DNA from: Saccharothrix sp. HUAS TT1
GTDB taxonomy: Bacteria > Actinomycetota > Actinomycetes > Mycobacteriales > Pseudonocardiaceae
Direction: 5' to 3'
Assembly (NCBI RefSeq): GCF_040744945.1
Contig: NZ_CP160453.1
Span: forward strand, 8,370,001-8,434,000
DNA: 64,000 nt
Part shown: positions 17,164-63,459 of the stretch, piece after piece
How positions within the stretch are numbered: the first letter of the stretch is position 1
How the letters are laid out: each line of letters starts with the position of its first letter
Position numbers and translations under genes: made by a program
Notes under the pieces: generated by a model
The model's database searches: none
The model's input: the letters and a program-made list of their open reading frames with translations, nothing else
What the model was told of the DNA's origin: nothing

Positions 17164-17165
17164 GG

Positions 17166-19581: not shown

Positions 19582-19776
19582 CGGTACACAGTCCCAGATC
19601 AACCAGGTGACTGCGAACGCCCGGTCGGTTGACCCCCAATCGTGTTAATTGTTACTCATTGCTATCGAAGGTGCGATCGCCATGTGTGTGAACGAGACCT
19701 TTAGCATTCGTCACGATCCACCTCGATCCCGCCGCACTACCAGAAAGCGCCGGGAGGACCCCGTCAAGGAGCCGCA

Positions 19777-21273: not shown

Positions 21274-21286
21274 CCAGCGGTTCCCC

Positions 21287-21324
21287 GGGGCGGGGTGGCG
21301 GCACGAACGCCGCCACCCCGCCCC
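21287..21324. terminator. Hairpin terminator after pepA
   Basis: Arms GGGGCGGGGTGGCGGC and GCCGCCACCCCGCCCC pair perfectly over 16 bp around a 6-nt loop, 14 nt after the pepA stop. Confidence 0.85.
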
Positions 21325-21380
21325 GGCGCGCCGCCACGCCACCACACCCCGGAACGACCGTCCACTCCGGACCGCGCTGA

Positions 21381-21474
21381 GCCGCGCCGCCCAGCCGAAC
21401 CCAGCCACGCGCGCTCCGCCCAACACGGCCGCGCCGCCCAGCCGAACGCAGCCGCGCGCGCTCCGCCGAACACG
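21381..21474. repeat. Two tandem 47-bp repeats
   Basis: Units at 21381-21427 and 21428-21474 differ at only a few positions and a third partial unit follows (GCCGCGCTCAGCCGCG). They fill the convergent gap between the pepA terminator and the gene at 21496. The unit has no open frame of its own that extends out of the gap. Function unknown. Confidence 0.85.
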
Positions 21475-21495
21475 GCCGCGCTCAGCCGCGACCGC

Positions 21496-21813
21496 TCAGG
21501 CTTGGCCCTTGCGCCGCGAGTAGTCGCGCATCCGCTTCGGGTAGCCGACGATGCCCGCGTCGTAGATCGGGATGCCGAGCTTCTTCGCCAGGCGCTTGGC
21601 GCCCTCCGTGCCGTCGATCCGGCGTCGCGTCCACTCGCCGTCGTGCGCGACGAGCACGACCGTGGTCTCCGTCACGGTCGTCTTCGGTTCGACGTACGCC
21701 TCCACGCCGCGCCGTGCGGCGGCCCACTGCTCCAGGTGACCGGTGTCCGTGGACGTGGACGCGCGCAGCACGCCGGGGCGCTGCTTCCTGCGGAAACGGT
21801 CGAACAGGCCCAC
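21496..21813 (-). CDS. Hypothetical protein (105 aa)
   Basis: 105-residue soluble protein. GTG at 21813 with AGGAGG upstream is preferred over the longer open frame. The N-terminus GLFDRFRRKQRPGVLR is basic, the middle is a beta-rich segment (VTETTVVLVAHDGEWTRR) and the C-terminus KLGIPIYDAGIVGYPKRMRDY is tightly patterned, suggesting a folded conserved domain. Function unknown. Divergent from lpdA. Confidence 0.72.
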   Translation of the reverse strand: MGLFDRFRRKQRPGVLRASTSTDTGHLEQWAAARRGVEAYVEPKTTVTETTVVLVAHDGEWTRRRIDGTEGAKRLAKKLGIPIYDAGIVGYPKRMRDYSRRKGQA

Positions 21814-21988
21814 CGGGCCACCTCCTGCCGGGAATTCTCGGGACCATGGTGCCGGCGCGGGTGTGAAGGCGGGGCCAAATCCTCCGAACAGGACACCGCG
21901 TCGCCGCCGCCCGCGCGGTAGTGACAAGATGGCAACCACACGCGCGCACCCGCGCGGAGTAAGGCATCAAGCTCTCCAGGGAGAACCC

Positions 21989-23359
21989 GTGACCGACACC
22001 TCCGCCGACCTTGTGATCCTCGGTGGCGGCTCGGGCGGCTACGCCTGCGCGTTCCGCGCGGCCGAGCTCGGCCTGTCCGTCATCCTGGTCGAGAAGGACA
22101 AGCTGGGTGGCACGTGCCTGCACCGCGGCTGCATCCCCACCAAGGCGCTGCTGCACGCGGCGGAGGTCGCGGACAACGCGCGCGAGGGTGACCAGTTCGG
22201 CGTGAAGTCCTCGCTGGAGGGCATCGACATCGCGGGCGTCAACTCCTACAAGGACGGCGTGGTCAGCCGGCTCTACAAGGGCCTGCAGGGCCTGGTCAAG
22301 GCCAACAAGGTGACCCTGGTCGAGGGCGCGGGCACGTTCATCGGCCCGAACACCGTCGAGGTCGACGGCCAGCGCTACACCGGCCGGAACGTGGTGCTGG
22401 CGACCGGTTCCTACGCCCGCAGCCTGCCCGGCCTGGAGATCGGCGGCCGGGTCATCACCAGCGACCAGGCGCTCAACCTGGACTTCGTCCCGGAGAAGGT
22501 CGTGGTGCTCGGCGGCGGCGTCATCGGCGTCGAGTTCGCCAGCGTGTGGGCCTCCTTCGGCGCCGACGTGACCATCGTGGAGGCGCTGCCCCGCCTGGTC
22601 CCGGCCGAGGACGAGTACGCGTCCAAGCAGCTGGAGCGCGCGTTCCGCCGGCGCGGCATCAAGTTCAAGACCGGCGTGAAGTTCACCGGCGCCACCCAGG
22701 GCGAGTCCGGCGTGTCGGTCACCCTGGAGTCCGGCGACGTGCTGGAGGCCGACCTGCTGCTGGTCGCCGTCGGTCGCGGCCCCAACACCGCGGGCCACGG
22801 CTACGAGGAGGCCGGCGTGCGGATCGAGCGCGGCTTCGTGGTCACCGACGAGCGGCTGCGCACCAGCGTGCCCGGCGTCTACGCGGTCGGCGACATCGTG
22901 CCCGGCCTGCAGCTCGCGCACCGCGGCTTCCAGCAGGGCATCTTCGTCGCCGAGGACATCGCCGGGCAGGACCCGAAGGTCATCGACGAGGCGGGCATCC
23001 CGCGCGTCACCTACTGCAAGCCCGAGGTCGCCTCGGTCGGCCTGTCCGAGGCCGCGGCCAAGGAGAAGTACGGCTCGGTGGAGACGTTCGTCTACGACCT
23101 CGCGGGCAACGGCAAGAGCCAGATCCTGAAGACCGCCGGCGGTGTCAAGCTGGTGAAGGCGCCTGACGGCCCGGTGGTCGGTGTCACCATGGTCGGCGAG
23201 CGGGTCGGCGAGCTGATCGGAGAGGCCCAGCTCATCTACAGCTGGGAGGCTTACCCCGAGGACGTGGCTCCGCTGATCCACGCCCACCCGACCCAGACAG
23301 AAGCCCTCGGCGAGGCTTTCCTCGCCTTGGCCGGCAAGCCGCTGCACGTGCACGGCTGA
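21989..23359 (+). CDS. lpdA: Dihydrolipoamide dehydrogenase (E3)
   Basis: 456-residue FAD flavoprotein that reoxidises the dihydrolipoyl arms of the 2-oxoacid dehydrogenase complexes. N-terminal FAD-binding GGGSGGYACA; redox disulfide C43/C48 in GTCLHRGCIPTK; NAD-binding GGGVIGVEFASVW; catalytic H433/E438 pair in HPTQTE. GTG at 21989 follows GGGAG. It is 54 nt upstream of sucB, so E3 and E2 are coexpressed. It serves the complexes built with aceE (38.3 kb) and sucB. Confidence 0.95.
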   Translation: MTDTSADLVILGGGSGGYACAFRAAELGLSVILVEKDKLGGTCLHRGCIPTKALLHAAEVADNAREGDQFGVKSSLEGIDIAGVNSYKDGVVSRLYKGLQGLVKANKVTLVEGAGTFIGPNTVEVDGQRYTGRNVVLATGSYARSLPGLEIGGRVITSDQALNLDFVPEKVVVLGGGVIGVEFASVWASFGADVTIVEALPRLVPAEDEYASKQLERAFRRRGIKFKTGVKFTGATQGESGVSVTLESGDVLEADLLLVAVGRGPNTAGHGYEEAGVRIERGFVVTDERLRTSVPGVYAVGDIVPGLQLAHRGFQQGIFVAEDIAGQDPKVIDEAGIPRVTYCKPEVASVGLSEAAAKEKYGSVETFVYDLAGNGKSQILKTAGGVKLVKAPDGPVVGVTMVGERVGELIGEAQLIYSWEAYPEDVAPLIHAHPTQTEALGEAFLALAGKPLHVHG

Positions 23360-45107: not shown

Positions 45108-45124
45108 CACGGCGAGCAGACGCG

Positions 45125-45243
45125 ACGCGCGCCTCCCATCCGGACTTTCACCGTCGGCCCCGGAGTTCCACCGGGTCAACCGCCCTGGTGGGCGGGTCGC
45201 GGGCTGTCACCGCCGGTTCGGATTTCCACCGAGCCCCGGAGCG
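45125..45243 (-). promoter_or_regulatory. FMN riboswitch (RFN element) upstream of ribM
   Basis: Read on the minus strand, the leader contains the invariant RFN blocks in order: CTCGGTGGAAATCCGAACCGGCGGTGACAGCCCGCGA (split here: GGTGGAAATCCGAACCGG then CGGTGACAGCCCGCGA), then GGGCGGTTGACCCGGTGGAACTCCGGGGCCGACGGTGAAAGTCCGGATGGGAG (blocks TTGACCCGGTGGAACTCCGG, CCGACGGTGAAAGTCCGGAT, GGGAG). It ends about 44 nt before the ribM ATG. FMN binding is expected to shut ribM expression. Confidence 0.96.
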
Positions 45244-45391
45244 CATGTCTTTCATCGCGTCCGAACATCATGGACCGCCGACCTGTTCCTGGGGTGAGCG
45301 ATGGCACACATCCGCAAGAACCGAGAACCCGCGGGCGGGACGTCACCGCGACTTCAGCCCGGGTACACCGGGGCTCGGTAGCTTCCGCCGA

Positions 45392-49383: not shown

Positions 49384-49503
49384 GAGCACCCTCCCCGAAC
49401 GAGCCGGTCACGAACGCCACCGACCGTAGGACGATCGGCGCGGAGCGTCCTGATGTGTCACTCGTTGGTGTCGACCTTCCGAGCCCGTGCGATCGTGGTG
49501 GGT

Positions 49504-50679
49504 ATGACCAGCTCAACCGCGTTGTCGCGGGCCACCTTGCGAGCGCTGCGACGGGCGTCGGGCGACCTGGCCGCGGCGAGCGTGGCCGAGATGGAGGAGC
49601 GCCTGCCCTGGTTCCGGCGGATGCCCGCCGACCAGCGGGCCGGGGTGCAGCTGCTGATCCAGAACGGCGTCTCCGGGTTCGTGTCCTGGCTGCACGACCC
49701 GCAGCAGGCGATCCGGCTGACCGCCGAGGCGTTCCGCTCCGCGCCCAAGGACATCTCCCGCTGGGTGAGCCTGCGGCAGACCGTGGAGCTGGTGCGGATC
49801 GCGCTGGAGCTGTTCGAGCAGTTGCTGCCGAGGCTGGCCGAGAACGAGGCCGAGCGCGCGCTGCTGAACGAGGGCGTGCTGCGGTACGGCCGGGAGATCG
49901 CGTTCTCGGCGGCCACCTCGTACGCGGCGGCGGCCGAGGCGCGCGGCGCGTGGGACGCCCGGCTGGAGGCGTTGGTGGTCGACGGCATCGTTCGTGGCGA
50001 CGGGGAGGAGTCGCTGCTGTCGCGGGCGACCGCGCTGGGCTGGGACCCGGCGGCGGAGGCGACCGTGCTGGTGGGCAACCCGCCGTCGGACGACCCGCCC
50101 GCGGTGGTGTTCGAGGTGCGCAGCCGGGCGGCCCGGATCGGCCGGCCGGTGCTGCTGAGCGTGCAGGGCTCGCGGCTGGTCGTGGTGCTGGGCGGTGAGA
50201 CCCAGCGCGGCGAGGCGCTGGTCCGGATCTCCGACGCGTTCGGGCCGGGTCCGGTGGTGGCCGGGCCGACCGTGACCAGCCTGGGCGACGCGCACCGCAG
50301 CGCGGGCGACGCGCTGTCCGGGCTGCGCGCGGTGGTGGGGTGGCCCGCCGCGCCGCGGCCGGTGCGGTCGCTGGACCTGCTGCCGGAGCGGGCGCTGGCG
50401 GGCGACCCGGAGGCGGAGTGGCAGCTGGTGGACCGGGTGGCCCGGCCGCTGGAGGAGGCGGGCGGCGCGCTGCTGGAGACGGTGGACGGGTTCCTGGAGG
50501 TGGGCGGCGTGCTGGAGGCGTGCGCGCGGAAGCTGTTCGTGCACCCGAACACGGTCCGCTACCGGCTCAAGCGGGCCACCGAGCTGACCGGGCGCAACGC
50601 CAACGACCCCCGTGACGCTCTGGTGCTGCGCGTCGCACTCTCCGTGGGCAGGCTGGCCCGCGCTCGCGGTCTGTGGTGA
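49504..50679 (+). CDS. fasR: FasR-type activator of fatty acid synthesis (PucR/CdaR family)
   Basis: 391-residue regulator with a C-terminal PucR-type helix-turn-helix (VGGVLEACARKLFVHPNTVRYRLKRATELTG) and a large N-terminal sensory domain. Located directly upstream of fabD-fabH-acpP-fabF, the defining context of streptomycete FasR, which activates that operon. Identification rests on context plus the HTH class. ATG 49504. About 190 nt separate it from fabD, containing a candidate operator. Confidence 0.88.
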   Translation: MTSSTALSRATLRALRRASGDLAAASVAEMEERLPWFRRMPADQRAGVQLLIQNGVSGFVSWLHDPQQAIRLTAEAFRSAPKDISRWVSLRQTVELVRIALELFEQLLPRLAENEAERALLNEGVLRYGREIAFSAATSYAAAAEARGAWDARLEALVVDGIVRGDGEESLLSRATALGWDPAAEATVLVGNPPSDDPPAVVFEVRSRAARIGRPVLLSVQGSRLVVVLGGETQRGEALVRISDAFGPGPVVAGPTVTSLGDAHRSAGDALSGLRAVVGWPAAPRPVRSLDLLPERALAGDPEAEWQLVDRVARPLEEAGGALLETVDGFLEVGGVLEACARKLFVHPNTVRYRLKRATELTGRNANDPRDALVLRVALSVGRLARARGLW

Positions 50680-50782
50680 CCCGACCGGGCGATCACGACC
50701 GGGTGTGACGGAAGACGCATGTCCGATTTGGGGCAGCATCGACAACGCGTGACGTCGTTCTACGTTCATCTACGGGTCACAT

Positions 50783-50799
50783 TTGTAGAGACCCTACAA
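50783..50799. promoter_or_regulatory. Candidate FasR operator upstream of fabD
   Basis: Inverted repeat TTGTAG-AGACC-CTACAA, 68 nt before the fabD start, in the least GC-rich part of the fasR-fabD gap. Location and dyad symmetry fit an activator site for the fab operon; not proven. Confidence 0.55.
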
Positions 50800-50866
50800 C
50801 GCTGGGTCCCTCGTTTCGTCAGTGGCGGCATCACGTCAAGCCGCCGGAAGCGTGTTCAGTGAACGC

Positions 50867-51802
50867 GTGATCGCGCTCCTCGCCCCCGGACAGGGCTCCC
50901 AGACACCCGGCATGCTCACCCCGTGGCTCGCCCTCGACGGTGCTGCCGAGCGCGTCGGCGCGTGGTCCGAGGCGACCGGGCTCGACCTCGTCCGGCTGGG
51001 CACCGAGGCCGACGCGGACGAGATCAAGGACACCGCCGTCACCCAGCCGCTGGTCGTCGCCCTCGCGCTGCTCGCGTTCGAGGAGCTGCGCCGCCGGGTC
51101 GAGCTGCCCGCCGACACGATCATCGCCGGCCACTCCGTCGGCGAGCTGGCCGCCGCCGCCATCGCGGGCGTGCTGAGCAGCGACGACGCCGTGGCGCTCG
51201 CCGCCGTGCGCGGCGCCGAGATGGCCGCCGCCTGCGCGCTGGCGCCGACCGGCATGGCCGCGGTGCTCGGCGGCGAGGAGGACGAGGTGCTGGCCCGGCT
51301 GGACGACCTCGGCCTGGTCGGCGCGAACCGCAACGGCGCGGGCCAGATCGTGGCCGCGGGCCCGCTGGACGCGCTGGACGAACTGGTCGAGGCCCCGCCG
51401 TCCCGGGCCAAGATCCGCAAGCTGCAGGTCGCGGGCGCCTTCCACACCAGGTTCATGGCGCCCGCCGAAGAGGCGCTGCGCGCCCGTGCCGCCGGGATCG
51501 CGGTCTCGGACCCCGCGCTGCCGCTGCTGTCCAACGCCGACGGCGCGGTGGTGACCGACGGCGCCGAGGTGCTGGGCCGACTGATCTCCCAGGTGACCCG
51601 CCCCGTGCGGTGGGACGCCTGCCAGGCAACCCTGGCCGGCCACGCCGTGACCGCGGTGGTGGAACTGCCGCCCGCGGGCGCGCTGACCGGCCTGGCCAAG
51701 CGCGAACTGAAGGGCACACCCACCTTGGGCCTCAAGACCCCGGACCAGCTCGACCAGGCCGTCGAGAAGATCGCCGCGACACCCGCGGGGGTGGCCGAGT
51801 GA
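50867..51802 (+). CDS. fabD: Malonyl-CoA:ACP transacylase
   Basis: 311-residue acyltransferase loading malonyl onto acyl carrier protein. Catalytic S90 in GHSVGE and H193 in AFHTRFM; the GQGSQ motif opens the protein. GTG at 50867 begins IALLAPGQGSQ; a GTG at 50852 is an alternative with a very close GGAAG. Stop overlaps the fabH GTG by 4 nt. First gene of the FAS II operon. Confidence 0.94.
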   Translation: MIALLAPGQGSQTPGMLTPWLALDGAAERVGAWSEATGLDLVRLGTEADADEIKDTAVTQPLVVALALLAFEELRRRVELPADTIIAGHSVGELAAAAIAGVLSSDDAVALAAVRGAEMAAACALAPTGMAAVLGGEEDEVLARLDDLGLVGANRNGAGQIVAAGPLDALDELVEAPPSRAKIRKLQVAGAFHTRFMAPAEEALRARAAGIAVSDPALPLLSNADGAVVTDGAEVLGRLISQVTRPVRWDACQATLAGHAVTAVVELPPAGALTGLAKRELKGTPTLGLKTPDQLDQAVEKIAATPAGVAE

Positions 51803-52776
51803 GCACCTTCTCGGTCCCCGCGAGCGCGGCGGGCACCCGCATCCTCGGCCTGGGCAGCTACCAGCCCGAGACCATCGTCAGCAACCACGACCTCAGCCTG
51901 CGGATGGACACCTCCGACGAGTGGATCCGCGACCGGGTCGGCATCGCCAACCGCCGGGTGGCCAAGCCGGACGAGCGGTTGGTCGACATGGCGATCGAGG
52001 CGGGCGCCAAGGCCGTCGCCGACGCCGGGCTCACCCCGTCGGACATCGGCGCGGTCATCGTGGCCACCTGCACCATGCCGTCCCAGATCCCCAACGCGGC
52101 GGCGCAGGTCGCCCACCGGATCGGGATCAAGGCCGCGGCCGCGTTCGACCTCAACGCCGCGTGCGCGGGCTTCTGCTACGCCCTGGGCACCGCGTCCGAC
52201 CTGGTCCGCGGCGGCACCGCGGAGCACGTGCTGGTCATCGGCGCGGAGAAGCTGACCGACTGGGTCGACCCCGACGACCGGTCCACCGCGATCATCTTCG
52301 CCGACGGCGCGGGCGCGGCGGTCGTCGGACCGGCCGACGAGCCGGGCATCGGCCCGGTGTCGTGGGGCAGCGCGGGCGACCTGGTGGACATGATCCACGT
52401 CGCCGACCGGCACTCGTCCATCTTCCAGGAGGGCCAGTCGGTCTTCCGCTGGGCGACCACGCAGATCGCCCCGATCGCGCTCAAGGCGATCGAGCTGGCC
52501 GGTCTGCAGGTGTCCGACGTGGACGTCTTCGTGCCGCACCAGGCGAACCTGCGGATCATCGAGGCCATCGCGAAGCGGTTGCGCGCCAAGGGCGCCCGTG
52601 AAGACCTGGTGATCGCGCGTGACATCGTGGAATCCGGCAACACCTCGTCCGCTTCGATCCCGCTCGCGCTGGACCACATGCGCGCGGCGGGAGAGGTGCG
52701 CAGCGGCGACGTGGCGCTGCTCGTCGGCTTCGGCGCCGGCCTGTCCTACGCGGGACAGGTCGTCCGGCTGCCGTGA
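51799..52776 (+). CDS. fabH: 3-oxoacyl-ACP synthase III
   Basis: 325-residue initiating ketosynthase condensing acyl-CoA (branched starter units in Actinobacteria) with malonyl-ACP. Catalytic triad C122 (NAACAGF), H247 (PHQAN) and N281 (ESGNTSS). Typical N-terminus ILGLGSYQPETIVSN. GTG overlapped with the fabD stop. Confidence 0.96.
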   Translation: MSTFSVPASAAGTRILGLGSYQPETIVSNHDLSLRMDTSDEWIRDRVGIANRRVAKPDERLVDMAIEAGAKAVADAGLTPSDIGAVIVATCTMPSQIPNAAAQVAHRIGIKAAAAFDLNAACAGFCYALGTASDLVRGGTAEHVLVIGAEKLTDWVDPDDRSTAIIFADGAGAAVVGPADEPGIGPVSWGSAGDLVDMIHVADRHSSIFQEGQSVFRWATTQIAPIALKAIELAGLQVSDVDVFVPHQANLRIIEAIAKRLRAKGAREDLVIARDIVESGNTSSASIPLALDHMRAAGEVRSGDVALLVGFGAGLSYAGQVVRLP

Positions 52777-52840
52777 CCGCAACCCCAGACCCCGGTGGGA
52801 CCAACCAGCCGGTTGAGCAAGAAGAAGGAAGGGATTTTCA

Positions 52841-53080
52841 GTGAGCAACGAGGACATCCAGAAGGGGCTCGCCGAGATCGTCGAGGAGGTCGCCGGTGTC
52901 GAGGCGGCCGACGTGACGGTTGACAAGTCCTTTGTGGACGACCTGGACATCGACTCGCTGTCCATGGTGGAGATCGCCGTGCAGGCCGAGGACAAGTTCG
53001 GCGTGAAGATCCCGGACGACGAGCTGGCCAACCTCAAGACCGTGGGCGATGCGGTCAACTACATCGCCAGCAACGCATGA
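52841..53080 (+). CDS. acpP: Acyl carrier protein
   Basis: 79-residue acidic carrier protein. The phosphopantetheine attachment site is S39 in DIDSLSMVE. Preceded by a purine-rich Shine-Dalgarno (GAAGGAAGGG). Its stop overlaps the fabF ATG (ATGA). Donor of the octanoyl group used by LipB. Confidence 0.97.
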   Translation: MSNEDIQKGLAEIVEEVAGVEAADVTVDKSFVDDLDIDSLSMVEIAVQAEDKFGVKIPDDELANLKTVGDAVNYIASNA

Positions 53081-54312
53081 CCAGTAGCAACGACGTCGTC
53101 GTCACCGGGCTGGGTGCCACCACCCCGCTCGGTGGCGATGTCGCCTCCACCTGGGACGCGCTCCTGGCCGGCCGCAGCGGTGTGCGCACCCTGACGGCCG
53201 ACTTCGTCGAGCGCTTCGAACTGCCGGTCAAGATCGGCGCGCCGCTCGCGGTCGAGCCGACCGAGGTGCTGCCGCGCGTCGAGGCCCGCCGGCTGGACCG
53301 CTGCGAGCAGGTCGCCGTGGTCGCCGCGCGCCAGGCGTGGGCGGACGCCGGGTTCGGCGAGGACGACGTCGACCCCGAACGGCTCGGTGTCGTGGTGGGC
53401 ACCGGCATCGGCGGCGCGATGACGCTGCTGGACCAGGACGACCTGATCGAGGCGTCCGGCCTGCGCAAGGTGTCGCCGCTGACCGTGCCGATGCTCATGC
53501 CGAACGGCCCGGCCGCGCACGTCGGCCTGGACCTGAAGGCGCGCGCGGGCGTGCACGCGCCGGTGTCGGCCTGCGCGTCCGGCGCCGAGGCGCTGGCCTG
53601 GGCGTACCGGATGCTGAAGTCGGGCGAGGCGGACGTGGTCGTGGCCGGTGGCGCGGAGGCGTGCATCACCACCATCACCATGGCCGGCTTCATCCAGGCC
53701 CGGACCATGAGCACCCGCAACGACGACCCGGAAGCCGCCTCGCGGCCGTTCGACGTCCACCGGGACGGGTTCGTGCTCGGCGAGGGCGCCGGCATCCTGG
53801 TGCTGGAGCGCGAGGACTTCGCCCGCGCCCGCGGCGCGCGGATCTACGGCAAGCTCGCGGGCATCGGCACCACCTCCGACGGCCACCACATCACCGCGGC
53901 CGACCCGGAGGGCATCGGCCAGTCCCGGGCCATCACGAAGGCGATCCGCACCGCGGGCGTCGACCCGGCCGACGTCGGCCACGTCAACTGCCACGCGACG
54001 TCCACCCCGGTGGGCGACGTGATCGAGCCGCAGGCCGTGCGCCGGGCGATCGGTGAGCACGCCGTGCTGACCGCGCCCAAGGGCAACCACGGGCACCTGC
54101 TGGGCGCCTCGGGCGCGGTGGAGGCGATCACCACGCTGCTGTCGGTCCGCGACGGCATCGTGCCGCCGACGCTGAACCTGCAGGAGCAGGACCCGAGGGT
54201 GCAGCTGGAGGTCGTCACGGGTGAGCCGCGCAAGATCGACCTGATCGCGGCGGTCAACAACTCGTTCGGGTTCGGCGGGCACAACGTCTCGCTCGTCTTC
54301 ACCCAAGCCTGA
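53077..54312 (+). CDS. fabF: 3-oxoacyl-ACP synthase II
   Basis: 411-residue elongating ketosynthase. Catalytic C166 (SACASG), H306 (CHATSTPVGD) and H340 (NHGHLLGASGA). N-terminus VVVTGLGATTPLG is canonical. Translationally coupled to acpP. Confidence 0.96.
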   Translation: MTSSNDVVVTGLGATTPLGGDVASTWDALLAGRSGVRTLTADFVERFELPVKIGAPLAVEPTEVLPRVEARRLDRCEQVAVVAARQAWADAGFGEDDVDPERLGVVVGTGIGGAMTLLDQDDLIEASGLRKVSPLTVPMLMPNGPAAHVGLDLKARAGVHAPVSACASGAEALAWAYRMLKSGEADVVVAGGAEACITTITMAGFIQARTMSTRNDDPEAASRPFDVHRDGFVLGEGAGILVLEREDFARARGARIYGKLAGIGTTSDGHHITAADPEGIGQSRAITKAIRTAGVDPADVGHVNCHATSTPVGDVIEPQAVRRAIGEHAVLTAPKGNHGHLLGASGAVEAITTLLSVRDGIVPPTLNLQEQDPRVQLEVVTGEPRKIDLIAAVNNSFGFGGHNVSLVFTQA

Positions 54313-54345
54313 CCACCCCCGAACGTCCACACGAGGAGCTTCGCG

Positions 54346-55773
54346 ATGACTGCCCTGGCGTCCCCACCGGTGAGCCCGGAGGCGGACGGCGAGACCGATC
54401 CGCGCGATCCGGAGTTCCGGTTGGCGCAGCTGCTCGACCCCGGTTCGATCGTGCCGCTGCGTCCGCGTGATGACAGCGGCATGTTCGCGGTGCGGGGACG
54501 CATCGACGGCGCGAGGGTCGTGGCCTACTGCAGTGATGCCACGCGGATGGGTGGCGCGTTGGGGTCACAGGGGTGTGGGCACATCGTGGAGGCGATCGAC
54601 ACCGCGGTGCGTGAGCGCGTCCCGGTGATCGGGGTGTGGCACTCCGGCGGCGCGAGGCTGCCGGAGGGGGTGGAGTCGCTGGACGGCATGGGCCGGATGT
54701 TCGCGGCGATGATCCGGGCCTCGGGGCGGGTGCCGCAGGTCTCGGTCGTGGTCGGCCCCGCCGCCGGCGGCGGCGCGTACGGGCCGGCGTTGACCGACGT
54801 GGTCGTGATGGCCCCGGCCGGGAAGGTGTTCGTGACCGGGCCGGACGTGGTGCGGTCGGTGACCGGCGAGCGGATCGACATGGACGGTCTGGGCGGGGCG
54901 GAGGCGCACGGGCGCAGGTCCGGTGTGGTGCACGTGGTGGCCGAGGACGAGCCCGACGCCTACCTGCGGGCGCGGCGGATCACCGGGCTGTTCGCCCGGC
55001 CGGGGGTGTTCGACCTGCAGTCGGTGCCCGACGGGGAGGACCTGCGGGCGTTGCTGCCGGACCGGCCGCGGCGGGCCTACGACGTCAAGCCGCTGGTGCG
55101 GGCGATCCTGGACGAGGACTCGTTGGAGGAGTTGCAGGCGCGGTGGGCGCCCAACGTCGTGGTCGGCCTGGGCCGGTTGGGCGGGCGCGCGGTGGGGGTG
55201 ATCGCGAACAACCCGATCCGCAAGGGCGGCTGCCTGGACTCGTTGTCGGCGGAGAAGGCGGCGCGGTTCGTGCGGATGTGCGACGCGTTCGGGGTGCCGT
55301 TGCTGGTGCTGGTGGACGTGCCGGGGTATCTGCCCGGGGTGGGGCAGGAGTGGGACGGGGTGGTGCGGCGGGGCGCGAAGCTGCTGCACGCCTTCGGCGA
55401 GGCCGTCGTGCCGCGGGTGACGCTGGTGACGCGCAAGTCCTACGGCGGGGCCTACATCGCGATGAACTCGCGGTCGCTGGGCGCCACGGCGGTGTTCGCG
55501 TGGCCGGAGGCGGAGGTGGCCGTGATGGGTGCGGGGGCCGCGGTGGGCATCCTGCACCGCAGGAAGCTCGCGGCCGTGCCCGACGAGGAGCGCGAGGCGC
55601 TGCACGCCGAGTTGGTGCGGGAGCACGAGCGGATCGCCGGCGGCGTGGACCGGGCGATCGCGATCGGCGTCGTGGACGAGGTCGTCGACCCCACCCGAAC
55701 CCGCCGGGCACTGGCCCGGGCCCTCGCCGCGGCCCCCGCCGGCCGCGGCGCGCACGGCAACATCCCGCTGTAG
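54346..55773 (+). CDS. Acyl-CoA carboxylase carboxyltransferase subunit (AccD6-like)
   Basis: 475-residue carboxyltransferase beta-type subunit of an acetyl/propionyl-CoA carboxylase making malonyl-CoA for the fab enzymes. Two crotonase-like halves: N-terminal CGHIVEAIDTAVRERVPVIGVWHSGGARLPEG and VVGPAAGGGAYGPAL; C-terminal VDVPGYLPGVGQEWDGVVRRGAKLL and KSYGGAYIAMNS. Position after fabF matches accD6 of mycobacteria. ATG preceded by GAGGAG. The biotin-carrier alpha subunit is not in the window. Confidence 0.92.
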   Translation: MTALASPPVSPEADGETDPRDPEFRLAQLLDPGSIVPLRPRDDSGMFAVRGRIDGARVVAYCSDATRMGGALGSQGCGHIVEAIDTAVRERVPVIGVWHSGGARLPEGVESLDGMGRMFAAMIRASGRVPQVSVVVGPAAGGGAYGPALTDVVVMAPAGKVFVTGPDVVRSVTGERIDMDGLGGAEAHGRRSGVVHVVAEDEPDAYLRARRITGLFARPGVFDLQSVPDGEDLRALLPDRPRRAYDVKPLVRAILDEDSLEELQARWAPNVVVGLGRLGGRAVGVIANNPIRKGGCLDSLSAEKAARFVRMCDAFGVPLLVLVDVPGYLPGVGQEWDGVVRRGAKLLHAFGEAVVPRVTLVTRKSYGGAYIAMNSRSLGATAVFAWPEAEVAVMGAGAAVGILHRRKLAAVPDEEREALHAELVREHERIAGGVDRAIAIGVVDEVVDPTRTRRALARALAAAPAGRGAHGNIPL

Positions 55774-55825: not shown

Positions 55826-55932
55826 TCCGAACGTTCAACTCACCCCTCCTGAACGCAGGACTCTCGCGTCCTGAACGTAGGACTCTCGCGAGAGTCGTAC
55901 CTCCAGCCCACGCGTGTCCTACGTTCAGCAGG
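55826..55932. repeat. GAACGTAGGACTCTCGCG repeat array, second locus
   Basis: Direct units CGAACGTTCAACTC (about 55828), CCTGAACGCAGGACTCTCG (from 55849) and CCTGAACGTAGGACTCTCG (from 55870), then a perfect palindrome GACTCTCGCGAGAGTC (55881-55896), then one unit inverted (CGTGTCCTACGTTCAGCAGG, 55912-55932). The inverted unit overlaps the last codons and stop of the minus-strand gene at 55925. No copy of the 17-bp inverted repeat is complete here, though CCATGTCCGAACG at 55821 resembles a remnant of its right arm. Confidence 0.88.
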
Positions 55933-56503: not shown

Positions 56504-57002
56504 ACCTGGAGCGTGCCACAGCGCCACTACGCGCGGGTAATCACCCGGACGGTGTAGCAGATCACCCGCACTTTGCGGTTTGACCGGGCGGCATAGCCAC
56601 TGCCAATAGTTCCGTTGTGAAGCAACCACCCCATTCCCACCATATTGCGGGTCAACCGCGTCCCGAATTGCGACCAGTCCGTCCGACCACCTGGTGGGAC
56701 ACCGTCAGTGATGTAACCCGCAATACAGCGGTCTCCCGATATAACCGCAGGTCGAGCCGCTAGAATGCGAAGAACGATCGCGTTTCGTTTAGGCTGACCG
56801 AGTGGTCGGTTTCCCCTCACCGGCGCGCTCAAACCTCGCGTTCGGGTGACTCTCTTGGTCCTATAGGTACGTGCAGTGCAGATCCGACGAACAGCTACTC
56901 GCACGAACGGACGCAGAGCGCCCCCGAAATGGTGGATTGGCTTCTCAGAGGTTGCCGTGCGGAAATATTCCGGTCGGAAAAATCGCGAGGAGGCGAAAAC
57001 CC
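56504..57002. promoter_or_regulatory. AT-richer upstream region of the lanthipeptide cluster
   Basis: About 500 nt of lower GC than the flanking genes, without a convincing ORF. Contains a 10-bp inverted repeat TATTGCGGGT (56643-56652) and ACCCGCAATA (56716-56725), and direct elements AATCACCCG / GATCACCCG near 56539 and 56560. A promoter for lanKC is likely close to CTTGGTCCTATAGG (about 56854-56867). GAGGAGG at 56987-56993 is the Shine-Dalgarno for lanKC. Confidence 0.6.
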
Positions 57003-59534
57003 GTGGACCTCCGCTATGAGGCCTACTGCTTCGCGGACCGTCTGTTCTACGACGTGCAAAGCCACGCGGAAACCGCCGAAGACGATTTCTCGCAGGTGCT
57101 TCCCCCGTTGCCGGACGGTTGGCGGCAAGGCGACCGCAACATCTGGCGGCACCTCCACCCCGACGGGGTGGAACTGCCCCGCCAGGGCTGGAAGGTGCAC
57201 GTTTCGGCGACCGTGCTGAACGCGGGCGACGTGCTGCTCAAGTCCTACGAGTACCTGATCGCGCGCCGCATCCCGTTCAAGTACCTGCGCACCCGGTCGA
57301 TCGTGCTGGCCCGCAACTCGAAGTACGCGCCACGCGAGGGCAGCGGCAAGCTCATCACGATCTACCCGGCCGACGACGCCGAACTCGAATCGACGCTGAC
57401 CGAGTTGTCCGAGGTCTTGAAAGGCCAATCGGGCGCGTACATCCTCAGCGACCTCCGCTATGGCGCCGGTCCCCTGTTCGTCCGCTACGGCGGATTCGTC
57501 GAGCAGTGGCTGGAGCGGGACGGCAAGCGCGTGCTGGCCATCGAGGGCCCGGACGGCGCGCTCGTGCCCGACCAGCGCAAGCCGACGTTCTGGGTGCCGG
57601 ACTGGGTGAAGCTGCCCGCGTGCCTGGACGAGCACCTGGCCGCGCGCCGCGCCGGCTCCGCCGACGAGTTCCCCTACCGCGTGGTCCAGTCGCTGCACTT
57701 CTCCAACGGCGGCGGCGTGTACGAGGCCGTGCGCAAGTCCGACGGCCGCGAGGTCGTGCTCAAGGAGGCCAGGCCGCACGCGGGCCTGGACCGGGAGAAC
57801 GTCGACGCCGTGGCCCGCCTGCGCCGCGAGCACGAGATGCTGACCAGGGTGGCCGGGGTGCCCGGCGTGCCCGAGGTGCACGAGCACTTCACCGCGTGGG
57901 AGCACGAGTTCATGGCCATGGAGCGGGTGCCCGGCCGCCCGCTCGGCCAGTGGCTCGGCCACAACTACCCGCTGACCCACCACGTGGTCACCGACGACGA
58001 CATCACCGCCTACACCGAGCGCGCGCTGAAGCTGATCGCCGACGTCGAGCGGATCATGGCCGCGGTGCACGAGCGCGGTGTCGTCTTCACCGACCTGCAC
58101 CCGCTCAACGTCCTGGTGGACGACGACGACGCGGTGTCGCTGATCGACTTCGAGCTGGCGTTCGGCATCGAGGAGAACCGCAGGCCCACGCTCGGCGCGC
58201 CCGGTTTCCAGGCGCCGCCGGACCGCTCCGGGTTCGAGATCGACGAGCACGCGATGGCCGCGCTGCGCCTCTACGTCTTCCTGCCGCTCAACGCGGTGAT
58301 CGAGCTGGCGCCGGTGAAGCTGCGCGCCCACGTCGACTTCATCCAGCGGCGGTTCGGCCTGTCCGACGAGTACTGCGCCAGGATCCTCGACGTCCTGACC
58401 TCGCGCGTCGACGTGCCGACCGGCCCGACGACGACCGCGCTGGACGTGCCGGAGCCGGACTGGGACGTGGTGCGCAAGTCGATCGCGGCGGGCATCCTGG
58501 CCAGCGCCACGCCCCAGCGCGCGGACCGGCTGTTCCCCGGCGACGTGGAGCAGTTCGAGATCGGCGGCGCGGGGTTCGGCTACGGCGCCGCGGGCGTGCT
58601 GCACGCGTTGGACGTCACCGGCATGGGCCGGTTCCCCGACCACGAGCAGTGGCTGCTGGACGCGGTGCGCCGCGACCCACCGAAGGAGCCCGGCTTCTAC
58701 ACCGGCGGTCACGGCATCGCCCACGTGCTGGAGAACTTCGGCCACCACGACCTGGCCGAGGAGCTGGTCCGCTCCTACGGGCAGATGGTGCCCGACACGC
58801 AGGACCACAGCCTCAAGGCGGGCCTGGCCGGCATCGGCCTGAACCTGCTGCACTTCGCGGGCACCCGCGACGACGAGACCTACGCCGACCAGGCGCTGGC
58901 GCTGGGCGAGCGGCTGGACACCGCGCTCGCCGAGGCCGAGCCGCCCGGACCGAAGGCGCGGGCCGGCTTCGAGCACGGCTGGTCCGGCCCGGCGCTGCTG
59001 TTCCTGCGGCTGTTCCAGCACACCGACGACCGCCGCTGGCTCGACCTCGGCGCCCGGGCGCTGGAGCGGGACCTGGCCGAGACGATGACCGCGCTGGACG
59101 GCTCGACCCAGGTCCGGGACGGCAACTTCCGCACCCTGCCGTACGTCGGCGTGGGCAGCGCGGGCATCGCCCTGGTGCTCAACGAGTTCCGCCTCGCCGC
59201 GCCGGACCTGCCGGTCGTCGAACGGCTGCCGGAACTGGTCGGCAGCGCGACCGGCGAGTTCGTGATCCAACCGGCGCTCATGCTCGGTCGGGCAGGTCTG
59301 CTGGCGACCCTCGTCCACGCGGGCGGGTCACCGGAGGCGATCGACCGGCACCTCGCCGCGCTGGCCTGGCACGCCGTGCCCTACCAGGAGGGCCTGGCGT
59401 TCCCCGGCATCCAGTTGCGGCGGCTCTCGATGGACGTCGACACCGGCAGCGCGGGCGTGCTGCTGGCGCTCGGCTCGCTGAACGGCACACCCGTGCTGCC
59501 GTTCCTCACAGCCCCGGCCCTCACCGGCCGGTAG
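57003..59534 (+). CDS. lanKC: Class III lanthipeptide synthetase (LanKC)
   Basis: 843-residue trifunctional lanthionine/labionin synthetase. Starts VDLRYEAYCFADRLFYD, the canonical LanKC opening; GTG 57003 with GAGGAGG upstream. Order: N-terminal phospho-Ser/Thr lyase domain (about 1-200); Ser/Thr kinase domain (about 220-480) with ATP lysine K254 (VVLKEAR), catalytic D364 (FTDLHPLNVL) and DFE at D382; C-terminal LanC-like cyclase. The cyclase keeps the Gly-rich alpha-toroid repeats (GFGYGAAGVLHAL, GFYTGGHGIAHVL, GFEHGWSGPALLFL, YVGVGSAGIALVL) but lacks the Cys-His-Cys zinc ligands, as in other class III enzymes. It phosphorylates, eliminates and cyclises the precursor encoded 37 nt downstream. 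Confidence 0.96.
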   Translation: MDLRYEAYCFADRLFYDVQSHAETAEDDFSQVLPPLPDGWRQGDRNIWRHLHPDGVELPRQGWKVHVSATVLNAGDVLLKSYEYLIARRIPFKYLRTRSIVLARNSKYAPREGSGKLITIYPADDAELESTLTELSEVLKGQSGAYILSDLRYGAGPLFVRYGGFVEQWLERDGKRVLAIEGPDGALVPDQRKPTFWVPDWVKLPACLDEHLAARRAGSADEFPYRVVQSLHFSNGGGVYEAVRKSDGREVVLKEARPHAGLDRENVDAVARLRREHEMLTRVAGVPGVPEVHEHFTAWEHEFMAMERVPGRPLGQWLGHNYPLTHHVVTDDDITAYTERALKLIADVERIMAAVHERGVVFTDLHPLNVLVDDDDAVSLIDFELAFGIEENRRPTLGAPGFQAPPDRSGFEIDEHAMAALRLYVFLPLNAVIELAPVKLRAHVDFIQRRFGLSDEYCARILDVLTSRVDVPTGPTTTALDVPEPDWDVVRKSIAAGILASATPQRADRLFPGDVEQFEIGGAGFGYGAAGVLHALDVTGMGRFPDHEQWLLDAVRRDPPKEPGFYTGGHGIAHVLENFGHHDLAEELVRSYGQMVPDTQDHSLKAGLAGIGLNLLHFAGTRDDETYADQALALGERLDTALAEAEPPGPKARAGFEHGWSGPALLFLRLFQHTDDRRWLDLGARALERDLAETMTALDGSTQVRDGNFRTLPYVGVGSAGIALVLNEFRLAAPDLPVVERLPELVGSATGEFVIQPALMLGRAGLLATLVHAGGSPEAIDRHLAALAWHAVPYQEGLAFPGIQLRRLSMDVDTGSAGVLLALGSLNGTPVLPFLTAPALTGR

Positions 59535-59571
59535 CAGTAACCCTTTCCAATCCCCCGAATGAGGAGTCACC

Positions 59572-59733
59572 ATGGACTTCATCCTCGACCTCCAGGACCT
59601 CGAGACCCCCGAGGCCCAGTCCAACGCCATGGCGAGCGGCGGCAGCAGCGGCGGCGGCGGCAGCACCACGGCCTCCAACGCCTCCCTGCTGCTCCCCTGC
59701 AGCCACTCGACCGTCAGCCTGGTCCTCTGCTGA
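59572..59733 (+). CDS. lanA: Class III lanthipeptide precursor peptide (53 aa)
   Basis: 53-residue SapB/AmfS-like precursor. ATG with GAGGAG 5-6 nt upstream. The leader MDFILDLQDLETPEAQSN carries the LxLQ-type recognition motif (LDLQ, 6-8 region). A Gly/Ser-rich spacer (SGGSSGGGGS) follows, then the core. Ring motifs: S35-x2-S38-x4-C43 and S46-x2-S49-x3-C53, both labionin/lanthionine Ser-x2-Ser-x(3-5)-Cys patterns. The core contains the AmfS/SapB-like SLLL before the first Cys. The Pro at 42 enlarges the first ring by one residue compared with SapB. Expected product: a two-ring amphipathic peptide, possibly a morphogen for aerial growth (inference from SapB). Confidence 0.95.
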   Translation: MDFILDLQDLETPEAQSNAMASGGSSGGGGSTTASNASLLLPCSHSTVSLVLC

Positions 59734-59751
59734 CAGGTCTTCACGCGGTCC

Positions 59752-59826
59752 GGGTGAGCGGCGCAGGCGAAGTGCGCCGCTCACCCGGCCAAGCGGGGGT
59801 CCGACGGCACGCCGTCGGACCCCCGC
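59752..59826 (+). terminator. Two tandem perfect hairpins between lanA and the exporter genes
   Basis: Hairpin 1: 14-bp arms 59752-59765 (GGGTGAGCGGCGCA) and 59773-59786. Hairpin 2: 16-bp arms 59793-59808 (GCGGGGGTCCGACGGC) and 59811-59826 with a 2-nt loop. No U-tract. They lie between the lanA stop and the first ABC gene, where they can attenuate read-through and stabilise the lanKC-lanA message. Confidence 0.88.
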
Positions 59827-59872
59827 ACACATGATGCGCCCGACCACGGCAATCGCATAGGAGCCCGGGACC

Positions 59873-61462
59873 ATGTTGCTGGCCGTGGTGCGGCACGACC
59901 TCAGGTGGGTGCTGCTGGCGTTGAACGCCCTGCCCGCCACCCTGGCCGGGCTGCTGCTGCCCACCGCGCTCGCCTCGGCGGTCGACATGGCGCTGAACGG
60001 CCGGCTGGACAGCGGCACCGTGCTGTGGCTGGTCGGCCTGGCGGGCGTGGAAGTCCTCGGTGACGCGATCGGCGTCATCCTCGCCGCGGCGATCACCGCC
60101 CGCGGCGCCGTGTTCCTGCGGCGCAAGCTGACCTCGCACCTGCTGGAGCTGGGCCACCCGGCCAGGTTCGAGCCCGGTGACGCGGTGAGCAGGCTGACCG
60201 GCGACAGCGCGATCGCCGGCGGCATCACCGTCCTCGCGGTGAACCTCGGGATCTCCGCGCTCACCGCCGTCGGCGCGATCACCGCGCTGGCCCTGCTGGA
60301 CTGGCGGCTCGCCGCGGTGTTCCTGGTGAGCGTCCCCCTGGCCGCGCTGCTGGTGCGCTCGCACCTGCGCCTCACCGCCGCCGACGTGGCGACCTACCAG
60401 GAGGTGTCCGGCGAGTTGTCCGCGCGACTGGTGGACGCGGTCGGCGGGCTGCGCACGATCGCCGCGTCCGGCCGAGCGGACCAGGAGGCGGACCGGGTCC
60501 TGCGCCCGCTGTCCCGCCTCACCGCCGCCGGCGTCGGCATGTGGACCACGCAGGCCAGGATGATCTGGCGGGCCGGCCTGCTGCTGCCCGCCGTGGAACT
60601 GGCCGTGCTCACCGCCGCCGGTTTCGGCGTGATGGCGGGCCGGTTGAGCGTCGGCGACGTCCTCGCCGCCCTCGGTTACGCGGCGCTGGGCATGTCGGTG
60701 GTCGGGCAGACGACCCTGCTGACCGCCCTCCAACGCGCCCGCGCGTCCGCCCGACGCCTCGAGGAAGTGCTCGCGACCCCCGTGCCGCCGCAGGAGCGGC
60801 CGGGCTACGCGAAGTCCGGCGAAGTCGTGCTGGCCGCCGTGAACGTCCCCGGCGCCCTCCACGACGTCGACCTCACCGTGCCGACCGGGACCTTCGTGGC
60901 CGTCGTCGGCCGGTCCGGCTCGGGCAAGTCCGCGCTGGCCTCCGTGATCGGCGGCCTGGTCCGACCGACCACCGGCGAGGTCCGCCGGGGCGGCTCCGTC
61001 GGGTACGCGTTCGAACGCCCGGCGCTGGTGGGCACCACCGTCGCCGACGCCGTCCGCTACGGCACCACCCTCGACCGCGCCGACGTGGAAGCCGCCTGCC
61101 GGGCCGCCCAGGTGCACGACGTCGTCGTGCGGTTGCCGCAGGGCTACGACACGCCCATGGCGACCGCCCCGATGTCCGGCGGCGAGGCCCAACGCCTCGG
61201 CCTGGCCCGCGCGTTCGTCCGCGACCCGGCCGTCCTGGTGCTGGACGACGCCACCGCGAGCCTCGACATGGTCACCGAGTCCACTGTGGAGCGTGCGGTG
61301 GAGTCCGCCCTGCCGGGCCGGACGAGGGTCGTGGTGACCCACCGCGCCGCCACCGCCCGACGTGCGGACGTCGTCGTCTGGTTGGACGACGGGCGGGTGC
61401 GGAAAGTGGGGCCGCACGCCGAGCTGTGGGACGACGACGAGTACCGGGCGGTGTTCGGCTGA
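59873..61462 (+). CDS. ABC exporter subunit 1 of the lanthipeptide cluster (degenerate ATPase site)
   Basis: 529-residue half-transporter: six membrane helices (about 1-310), then the ATPase domain with Walker A GRSGSGKSA, signature MSGGEAQRLG and H-loop VVVTHRAAT. The residue after the Walker B Asp is Asp instead of the catalytic Glu (LVLDDATASLD), and the Q-loop Gln is replaced in GYAFERPAL. It thus forms the non-hydrolysing site of a heterodimer with the next gene. Homologous to AmfA/RamA-type exporters. No peptidase domain, so leader removal is not done here. ATG at 59873 with GGAG upstream. Confidence 0.92.
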   Translation: MLLAVVRHDLRWVLLALNALPATLAGLLLPTALASAVDMALNGRLDSGTVLWLVGLAGVEVLGDAIGVILAAAITARGAVFLRRKLTSHLLELGHPARFEPGDAVSRLTGDSAIAGGITVLAVNLGISALTAVGAITALALLDWRLAAVFLVSVPLAALLVRSHLRLTAADVATYQEVSGELSARLVDAVGGLRTIAASGRADQEADRVLRPLSRLTAAGVGMWTTQARMIWRAGLLLPAVELAVLTAAGFGVMAGRLSVGDVLAALGYAALGMSVVGQTTLLTALQRARASARRLEEVLATPVPPQERPGYAKSGEVVLAAVNVPGALHDVDLTVPTGTFVAVVGRSGSGKSALASVIGGLVRPTTGEVRRGGSVGYAFERPALVGTTVADAVRYGTTLDRADVEAACRAAQVHDVVVRLPQGYDTPMATAPMSGGEAQRLGLARAFVRDPAVLVLDDATASLDMVTESTVERAVESALPGRTRVVVTHRAATARRADVVVWLDDGRVRKVGPHAELWDDDEYRAVFG

Positions 61463-63162
61463 TGACCTACCTGCGCGCCTTGCGCGAGCAGCGACGCGGC
61501 ATCGTGGTCCTGCTCGGCTGGTCGGTCCTGGAGGGCATCCCGGCCCTGCTGTCGGGACGGCTGGTGGGGATGGCCGTCGACCAGGGCTTCGCCGCCGGCA
61601 GGCCCGGCGTCGGCATCACCTGGCTGCTGGTCTTCGCGGCTGTAGCGGTCCTCGGCGGCTTCGGCCTGCGCCAGGTCTTCATGCGCCTGGGAGCCGTAGT
61701 GGAGCCGCTGCGCGACTCCTTGGTGCGCGAAGTCGTGCGCGGCGTCCTGCACGCCGGCTCCCAAACCCGCCAACCGGACGCCAGCGCCGTCGCCAGGATC
61801 ACCCGCCACGTCGAAGTCGTCCGCGACGCCACCGCCGGCGTCCTGGTGCAGGCCCGCGCCCTGCTGGTCACCACCACCGCCGCCCTCATCGGCCTCGCCA
61901 CCACGGTCTCCTCGCTGGCCTGGCTCGTGGTCCTGCCGGTGATCGCCGCGTTGGTCCTCTTCGGCCTCCTCCTCCCCTCCCTGGCCCGCCGCCAACGCCA
62001 CCTGGTCATGGCCGACGAGGACGCCGCCGCCGTGGCCGGCACCGTCTTCCTGGGCGTGCGCGACGTAACGGCCGCCGGCGGTGCGGACCACGCGCTGCAC
62101 GACGTGATGGCACAGGTGGAGCGCCAGGCGTCCGCCACCGTGCGGATGGCCTACGCCACCGCGCTGCGCGGCGTCGTCATCGCCCTGGGCGGGTTCGCCC
62201 CCATCGTCCTGCTGCTCTTGCTCGCGCCGGCGATGGTGCGCGCGGGCACGTTGACCGTCGGCGAAGTCCTCGGCGCCATCGTCTACCTGAGCACCAGCGT
62301 CCAACCCGCCCTGCGCCGCCTCGCCGACACGACCAGCACCGTCGTCCTGCGCCTGGTCGTGGCCCTGCGCCGGCTCGCGGAAGCCGCGCCACCGATCGAA
62401 CCGCCGACCGGCGACGGAACCCCCGAGGGCGCCGAGCTGGAACTGCGCGACGTGACGTTCGGCTGGAGCCCCACCGCCGAACCCGTGGTGCGATCGCTCG
62501 ACCTGACCCTCCCGGCGGGCACCCACCTGGCCGTCATCGGCCCCAGCGGCATCGGCAAGTCCACCCTGGCCGGCCTGGTGACCGGCATGGTGGAACCCCA
62601 GACCGGAACCGTCCGCTTCGGCGGCGTCCCCGTGCGATCGCTCAAGCCGGAGATCCGCCACGACCAGATCGCCCTGGTGCCCCAGGAGACCTACCTCTTC
62701 ACCGGCACGGTCAGGGAAAACCTGGCCCTCTTCGCCCCCACCGCCTCCGACGCCACCCTCCTGCGCGCCGTCGAAGCGGTCGGTGCCTCCGACCTCGTCA
62801 CCAGACTGGGCGGCCTCGCGGGCACCGTGGGCCACTCCGGCAACGGCCTCTCAGGCGGCGAATCCCAACTACTGGCCGCCGCCCGCGTCTACGCCTCGCA
62901 AGCCACCGTCGTGATCCTCGACGAAGCCGCCTCCGCCCTGGACCCCGCCGCCGAAGCCACTGTCGAACAAGCCTTCGCCGCCCGCGGCGGCACCCTGATC
63001 GTCATCGCCCACCGCCTCTCCTCAGCCCTGCGAGCAGACCTCGTCCTGCTGATGGACGGCGGCCCACCCCTCCTGGGCAACCACACCGACCTACTTGCCA
63101 CCTCACCGCTCTACAAAGACCTCATGGCCGCCTGGCAACCCGCACCAACCTCCACCACCTGA
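61462..63162 (+). CDS. ABC exporter subunit 2 of the lanthipeptide cluster (canonical ATPase site)
   Basis: 566-residue half-transporter with complete ATPase motifs: Walker A GPSGIGKSTL, Q-loop LVPQETYLFTGT, signature LSGGESQLL, Walker B VVILDEAASALD with the catalytic Glu, and H-loop VIAHRLSSAL. The ATG overlaps the upstream stop by 1 nt (TGATG). AmfB/RamB-type partner of subunit 1. The last kilobase uses more C-rich codons than the rest of the cluster. Followed by the composite inverted-repeat/array element. Confidence 0.94.
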   Translation: MTYLRALREQRRGIVVLLGWSVLEGIPALLSGRLVGMAVDQGFAAGRPGVGITWLLVFAAVAVLGGFGLRQVFMRLGAVVEPLRDSLVREVVRGVLHAGSQTRQPDASAVARITRHVEVVRDATAGVLVQARALLVTTTAALIGLATTVSSLAWLVVLPVIAALVLFGLLLPSLARRQRHLVMADEDAAAVAGTVFLGVRDVTAAGGADHALHDVMAQVERQASATVRMAYATALRGVVIALGGFAPIVLLLLLAPAMVRAGTLTVGEVLGAIVYLSTSVQPALRRLADTTSTVVLRLVVALRRLAEAAPPIEPPTGDGTPEGAELELRDVTFGWSPTAEPVVRSLDLTLPAGTHLAVIGPSGIGKSTLAGLVTGMVEPQTGTVRFGGVPVRSLKPEIRHDQIALVPQETYLFTGTVRENLALFAPTASDATLLRAVEAVGASDLVTRLGGLAGTVGHSGNGLSGGESQLLAAARVYASQATVVILDEAASALDPAAEATVEQAFAARGGTLIVIAHRLSSALRADLVLLMDGGPPLLGNHTDLLATSPLYKDLMAAWQPAPTSTT

Positions 63163-63201: not shown

Positions 63202-63335
63202 GGTTCGATTTGACATGGGTTCGGGTGCCATAGGCTGGACGAAGCCGGCAGGCCTGGCGGGACGCTCTTCCCCGCCGGGCCTGCCGGCTTTGGCCTGCAT
63301 AGGGTGCCCGTAAGGGCCCCATGTCAAATCGAACC
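63202..63335. repeat. 17-bp inverted repeat with nested palindrome, copy 2 of the composite junction element
   Basis: Outer arms GGTTCGATTTGACATGG (63202-63218) and CCATGTCAAATCGAACC (63319-63335). Between them is a 20-bp near-perfect inner stem (AAGCCGGCAGGCCTGGCGGG at 63242-63261 with 63271-63290). The right part, GCCCGTAAGGGCCCC then the arm, is the reverse complement of copy 1's loop, so the two copies share more than their arms. Confidence 0.92.
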
Positions 63336-63349: not shown

Positions 63350-63459
63350 CCCTGAACGTAGAACTCAGGACTCCCGAACGTAGGACTCTCGCACCCTGAA
63401 CGTAGGACTCTCGCGTCCCGAACGTAGGACACGCGGGACGTGAGGGTTCGACACGCGGG
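63350..63459. repeat. GAACGTAGGACTCTCGCG repeat array, third locus
   Basis: Units begin at about 63350 (CCCTGAACGTAGAACTCAGG), 63371 (CTCCCGAACGTAGGACTCTCG), 63393 (CCCTGAACGTAGGACTCTCG), 63416 (CCCGAACGTAGGACACGCGG) and a degenerate one ending at 63459. Same order as at 17.0 kb: inverted repeat first, then a unit reading GAACGTAGAACTC, then GAACGTAGGACTCTCGCG units. It ends 21 nt before the DUF3145 stop. Confidence 0.9.

Follow-up and report, generated by a model that had tools for sequence, protein, structure and literature searches.

The SapB/AmfS family comprises class III lanthipeptides; those of its members that have been studied assist the formation of aerial hyphae in filamentous soil bacteria. 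In the systems that produce SapB/RamS (Streptomyces coelicolor, ramCSAB) and AmfS (S. griseus), the genes run in the order LanKC, precursor, two ABC half-exporters (PMC4255298). NCBI holds more than 4,000 sequences of the family, and the precursors of the subgroup treated in the durhapeptin paper carry two tandem SXXSXXXC motifs (PMC13380574). Durhapeptin itself, from Streptomyces durhamensis, is a hydrophobic SapB/AmfS-family product with two such motifs, for which two labionins are supported, and its cluster has one transporter gene (PMC13380574). On the enzyme side, a close comparison is ThurKC of Bacillus thuringiensis (PDB 8sao), a three-domain, metal-independent LanKC for which the lyase lysines Lys108 and Lys117 and the glutamate of a DFE motif are named (PMC10604976).

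We analyzed a 64,000-nucleotide stretch of Saccharothrix sp. HUAS TT1 (contig NZ_CP160453.1, positions 8,370,001 to 8,434,000; hereafter the window, with positions counted from its first letter). It contains an operon of four frames, all present and intact:

57003..59534, + strand: LanKC, class III lanthionine synthetase (lyase, kinase, zinc-less cyclase), 843 aa from the most likely start, a GTG
59572..59733, + strand: precursor peptide of the SapB/AmfS family, 53 aa (Pfam RamS, NCBIfam SapB_AmfS_lanti)
59873..61462, + strand: ABC half-exporter 1, 529 aa (Pfam ABC_membrane and ABC_tran)
61462..63162, + strand: ABC half-exporter 2, 566 aa (Pfam ABC_membrane and ABC_tran)

The precursor begins 37 nt past the LanKC stop (59534 to 59572), and the start of exporter 2 overlaps the end of exporter 1 by one base (61462). 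This gene order is that of the SapB/AmfS family, as a preliminary description of this DNA had recognized in naming a ram/amf (SapB) layout. LanKC scored 1032.8 bits against the NCBIfam class III equivalog NF038151 (cut-off: 575) and 374.7 bits against the class IV model, below its cut-off of 650, which favors class III over class IV; the precursor scored 42.6 against Pfam RamS (cut-off: 24.3) and 51.4 bits against NCBIfam SapB_AmfS_lanti (cut-off: 25). Because LanKC and precursor reach 1032.8 and 51.4 bits against curated models, the operon is not a chance arrangement; as a class III lanthipeptide operon, the cassette belongs to the known SapB/AmfS family and is ordinary in kind. Neither a tRNA nor an Rfam match at gathering score was found inside the cluster.

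GTG 57003 was taken as the most likely start of LanKC, giving 843 aa, because GAGGAGG precedes this codon and the match to most relatives begins at the first residue of the protein that starts there. The start at 56871 in the preliminary description, an extension of 44 codons without support, was corrected on the same grounds. This single protein carries the Pfam domains RamC_N, Pkinase and LANC_like and matches LanKC chains in the PDB (E 7.7e-90). Its kinase motifs, previously described as intact, were located at K254 (in VVLKEARP), D364 (in TDLHPLN) and D382-F383-E384. The three Cys of LanKC stand at 9, 207 and 458, with none after residue 458; the cyclase domain is therefore one in which no Cys-Cys-His zinc site is possible, and the earlier call of a zinc-less cyclase holds. 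The ThurKC lyase lysines 108/117 (PMC10604976) correspond in the alignment to K107 and K116, and the glutamate of its DFE motif to E384, given a numbering offset of 3 deduced here. ThurKC differs in being a Firmicute system with another precursor and a two-part protease (PMC10604976).

The precursor starts with MDFILDLQ, in which LDLQ (residues 5-8) is the LxLQ leader motif of class III, and continues through a Gly/Ser-rich stretch into ASNASLLLPCSHSTVSLVLC, where two ring motifs, S35-x2-S38-x4-C43 and S46-x2-S49-x3-C53, lie in a very hydrophobic segment (residues 34-53, GRAVY 1.15). The length, the 37-nt distance, the leader motif and the two Ser-x2-Ser-xn-Cys motifs were thus all as first described. 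If the leader were cut before residue 34, the core (residues 34-53) would have a monoisotopic mass of 1941.98 Da once four waters are lost. Its labeling as a precursor of unannotated size did not survive the family search: besides passing both cut-offs above, the peptide has 98 database relatives (99 sequences with the query), many of them already named SapB/AmfS family lanthipeptide, and Saccharothrix sp. S26 (locus L010) encodes exactly this precursor over its full length despite 8 nucleotide differences. We rejected a new, unannotated precursor for these reasons. Named relatives occur in Saccharothrix, Lentzea, Actinosynnema and Umezawaea. The exact core is present in 4/99 precursors (query included) and in 2/51 relative operons, SLLLPCSHS in 86/99 (query included), and two Sx2Sx3-4C motifs in the precursors of 50 of the 51 relatives (53 loci minus L046 and L054, where no precursor was found). 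The suggestion that the core equals no named product and may be new is compatible with the open-licence literature, which, searched by name and by the letters SLLLPCSHS, yielded no characterized product with this core; against it, the core is shared with relatives. The molecule is probably undescribed, of a known kind.

Set beside SapB and AmfS, the window's precursor shares the LDLQ-type leader, the two Ser-x2-Ser-xn-Cys motifs and the RamS and SapB_AmfS_lanti matches, and differs in the Gly/Ser-rich stretch before the core and in ending on Cys. SapB's own core has three residues before its Cys. The first motif of the window's precursor has four (SNASLLLPC), as against the three of SXXSXXXC (PMC13380574). 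From durhapeptin, which is likewise of the family, hydrophobic and built on two SXXSXXXC motifs, the operon is set apart by its second transporter gene, its core and the labionins supported there (PMC13380574). The precursors of Saccharothrix, Lentzea, Actinosynnema and Umezawaea have a near-identical core, with small changes only, and the loci examined have the same operon in the same place; for none of these precursors did the literature searches yield a described product.

The operon also differs from SapB/AmfS in its regulatory surroundings. RamR carries a GerE domain, and all 73 LuxR-type GerE domains are at least about 297 kb away from the operon (measured the shorter way, with the contig taken as circular). 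The Streptomyces-type ram/amf regulon, a sub-layout and not the family, has an adjacent ramR and a TTA codon in a ramR-like or ramC gene; here no ramR-like gene is nearby and none of the four operon genes contains TTA. With neither feature present, regulation therefore differs from that in Streptomyces; a 2013 review gives ramR as found only in streptomycetes (PMC4255298).

Of 53 LanKC loci, 28 (from Saccharothrix, Actinosynnema, Lentzea and Umezawaea) have the operon flanked by a g55925 homologue on one side and DUF3145 on the other; the remaining 25, which include Amycolatopsis, showed no such pair within the flanks retrieved (up to 6 kb). A LanKC ortholog is present in 21/24 same-genus genomes, and from the remaining three (G007, G014 and G018) the whole unit is cleanly absent, the matches to the flanking genes lying 61, 238 and 86 nt apart, respectively. 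The operon has apparently been kept vertically in its lineage.

Several features were recorded around the operon. To its left, 49453-55773 encodes a PucR-type regulator, an acyltransferase (50822), a ketoacyl synthase (53077) and a carboxyltransferase (54346), which by their sequences form a fatty-acid synthesis cluster, and an FMN riboswitch (98.8 bits) lies on the minus strand at 45124-45247. Repeats around TGAACGTAGGACTCTCGCG flank the operon at 55845-55932 and 63350-63437, with a spacing of 22 bp in the right-hand array. Just after exporter 2, at 63202-63335, a perfect 18-bp inverted repeat (GGTTCGATTTGACATGGG) encloses a 40-nt imperfect palindrome; this segment resembles a small mobile or REP-type element, and stretches of 29-59 nt from it are common to the same spacer of four Saccharothrix relatives.

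The spacer between precursor and exporter 1 contains three elements:

59750..59788, + strand: conserved stem-loop (hairpin 1), 16 pairs and a 7-nt loop, from fold, alignment, covariation and genome search
59793..59826, + strand: second hairpin, variable in sequence among relatives and missing from this position in Amycolatopsis spacers
59830..59841, + strand: conserved block CATGATGCGCCC, whose 9-mers occur in 19-24 of 28 syntenic spacers

The segment 59730-59880 folds with a z of -7.2 into the two hairpins listed above. The first of them, hairpin 1, was found once per locus in 47/53 relatives by a regular expression fixing GAGCGGC..A/T..GCCGCTC with a loop of 6-8 nt, by which the invariant pairs of the resulting alignment (A1) are partly imposed; the six loci outside the pattern are L046, L048 and L051-L054. 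Across 41 distinct rows, 8 of the 16 pairs are changed on both sides. Doubly changed cells number 79, compared with 29 +/- 4 in shuffles and at most 14 in slid versions; two of five measures are weaker, namely doubly changed pairs (8 versus 6.2 in shuffles, reached by 5 of 500) and the number of pair types (reached by 42 of 500). One compensatory change falls within the pattern-fixed part of the stem, at L169, a locus found by covariance model. Judged from these alignments, hairpin 1 covaries across genera. Its core is constant at 27 bp, with nearly invariant half-sites of seven bases whose centres are separated by 20 bp, and its loop is not kept in more distant genera.

Hairpin 1 and CATGATGCGCCC were the only stretches, by shared 9-mers, present in at least half of the 28 syntenic loci, and no such stretch was found in the spacers before LanKC (28 loci) or after exporter 2 (23 loci). 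Rfam gave no match at gathering score for hairpin 1, and three sub-threshold matches at 59500-59900 were taken as chance. Literature searches for a terminator at ramS/ramA or amfS, or for a hairpin associated with lanthipeptides, returned nothing relevant; some of them are weak negatives, as they brought up mostly unrelated papers. In most loci of Saccharothrix, Lentzea, Actinosynnema and Umezawaea, CATGATGCGCCC is conserved downstream of the hairpins, and Amycolatopsis has CATTTTGCC or a similar block instead; CATGATGCGCCC is possibly a -10-like promoter element or a processing site.

A search of 199 genomes with a covariance model of hairpin 1, in which 32 candidates were scored for each genome, gave 44 places with E < 1e-5, every one of them next to an operon of this type: 43 lie 198-317 nt after a LanKC, and the 44th follows a SapB-type precursor whose LanKC is on another contig. 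These matches are not independent, since many have scores identical to those of A1 rows and apparently represent the same species. The hairpin accompanies 39 of the best 40 LanKC matches, the exception being G064, and is absent at the more distant matches G053, G043 (C6), G038, G100, G087 and G114. The spacers of G064, G053, G043 (C6) and G038 have no hairpin or a shorter, displaced or different one. Of ten weaker model matches (E 1e-5 to 1e-3), one sits after a LanKC (G043, C10). The three same-genus genomes that have no operon have no hairpin 1 either. We considered a genome-wide repeat or a generic terminator for hairpin 1: in an eight-genome search (about 11,800-22,000 first-look candidates per genome, 150 scored), the five operon-bearing genomes had no other place with E < 1e-5, and in the three operon-free genomes no match went below E 0.27.

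In a class-wide search of 394 genomes, 17 genomes besides that of the window had matches between 27.8 and 44.4 bits; where a RamS match was listed for the genome, none of these was close to it. Since 16 candidates were scored in each genome under stricter filters, this is a weak negative. A RamS match exceeded the cut-off in 47 of the 394, the window's genome included. Similar stems outside the operon were found in G021 (1.2e-4), G003 (7.7e-4) and G509 (1.7e-6), with GTGAGCGGC/GCCGCTCAC near unrelated ORFs in G021 and G509; they lie directly after an open frame in G021 and G003 and between open frames in G509, and no link to the operon was seen. Ordinary hairpins with such a stem can therefore arise outside these operons, and their standing near unrelated ORFs, as ordinary terminators might, counts against a dedicated element. 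Of the best 30 RamS loci elsewhere in the class (L110-L139), 27 were read, three without a precursor being set aside; 21 of the 27 have a hairpin of at least 10 pairs behind the precursor, and in many of these the stem is of the CCCGGGCGG type. Against these 30 loci the model gave one weak match beside a RamS match (L121, 22.8 bits, E 0.0038), which could be a distant relative of hairpin 1, and another that was not beside one (L135, E 0.16). With one weak precursor-side match among 30 loci, most hairpins there therefore differ from hairpin 1.

Hairpin 1 probably acts by partial termination or by protecting the upstream mRNA, leaving more precursor than exporter. A U-run of at least four follows the stem in 13/48 elements (11 from Amycolatopsis and two from Saccharothrix), which in sequence look like intrinsic terminators; the window's copy has no U-run and is followed by the second hairpin. 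A more specific proposal, to which we give slightly less than even odds, is that hairpin 1 is an undescribed, lineage-specific cis element dedicated to the SapB/AmfS-type operons of the window's family. Its near-invariant GAGCGGC/GCCGCTC stem would be bound by an RNase, an RNA-binding protein or a regulator that controls the precursor/exporter ratio, and other actinomycete families would mostly have a different hairpin at that position.

The inverted repeat could instead be a DNA operator dyad for a regulator driving the exporter genes, and not an RNA hairpin at all, a reading that we consider unlikely. Such a dyad would fit the constant 27-bp core with its nearly invariant half-sites, the lack of conservation of the loop in more distant genera and the -10-like CATGAT block downstream. 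The mismatch cells point the same way, comprising 13 G-U and 19 A-C (11 of the A-C in one column): since A-C is not rarer than G-U and the core is constant, an operator keeps some weight against a purely RNA reading. It accounts poorly for compensatory changes that extend into the outer stem, transversions included, for the distance to the CATGAT block, which differs between genera, and for the U-runs in 13/48 elements.

Taken as a whole, the locus is best explained, with a probability of about 0.75, as a SapB/AmfS operon, apparently inherited vertically, whose enzyme would form rings without zinc, whose exported product would probably be a morphogen, and whose hairpin 1 would keep precursor above exporter. 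LanKC would bind the LDLQ leader of the precursor, phosphorylate core Ser, eliminate phosphate to give Dha and, independently of zinc, close two thioether rings. Secretion of the hydrophobic product would fall to the two half-exporters, and a protease encoded elsewhere in the genome would trim the leader. Hairpin 1, by lowering read-through into the exporter genes or protecting the upstream mRNA, would let precursor outnumber exporter. By analogy with SapB and AmfS, the product would most likely be surface-active and serve as a morphogen in aerial growth. We counted against this explanation the lack of a nearby RamR-like regulator and of TTA, the absence from 3/24 same-genus genomes and the missing U-run of the window's hairpin.

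As to the product, a labionin-bearing or mixed Lan/Lab peptide with antimicrobial or signaling activity, in place of a SapB-like surfactant morphogen, is a less probable outcome, of which we are doubtful. Lanthionine and labionin are indistinguishable from sequence, and the Sx2Sx3C motif gives lanthionine in some class III peptides and labionin in others (PMC7268733, PMC13380574). The family membership of the precursor and the hydrophobicity of residues 34-53 speak for the morphogen, as does the conservation of sequence and position across genera, which suits a developmental factor more than a variable antibiotic. Labionin and morphogen activity are moreover compatible, as a variant of the labionin-bearing durhapeptin induces aerial hyphae in some species (PMC13380574). 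That the operon is a decayed or silent cassette, as its absence from three of 24 same-genus genomes might suggest, is very improbable given four intact frames, intact catalytic motifs and a precursor protein unchanged in Saccharothrix sp. S26 across the 8 nucleotide differences.

A conserved, probably developmental SapB/AmfS-type operon is thereby added to a rare-actinomycete lineage for which we found no such product described; in several genera it keeps to a single position on the chromosome, and the Streptomyces regulator is missing. We found no description of the operon-bound hairpin, which is the part that deserves a specialist's second look: placed after the precursor, it offers a testable handle on the balance of precursor and exporter in such operons.
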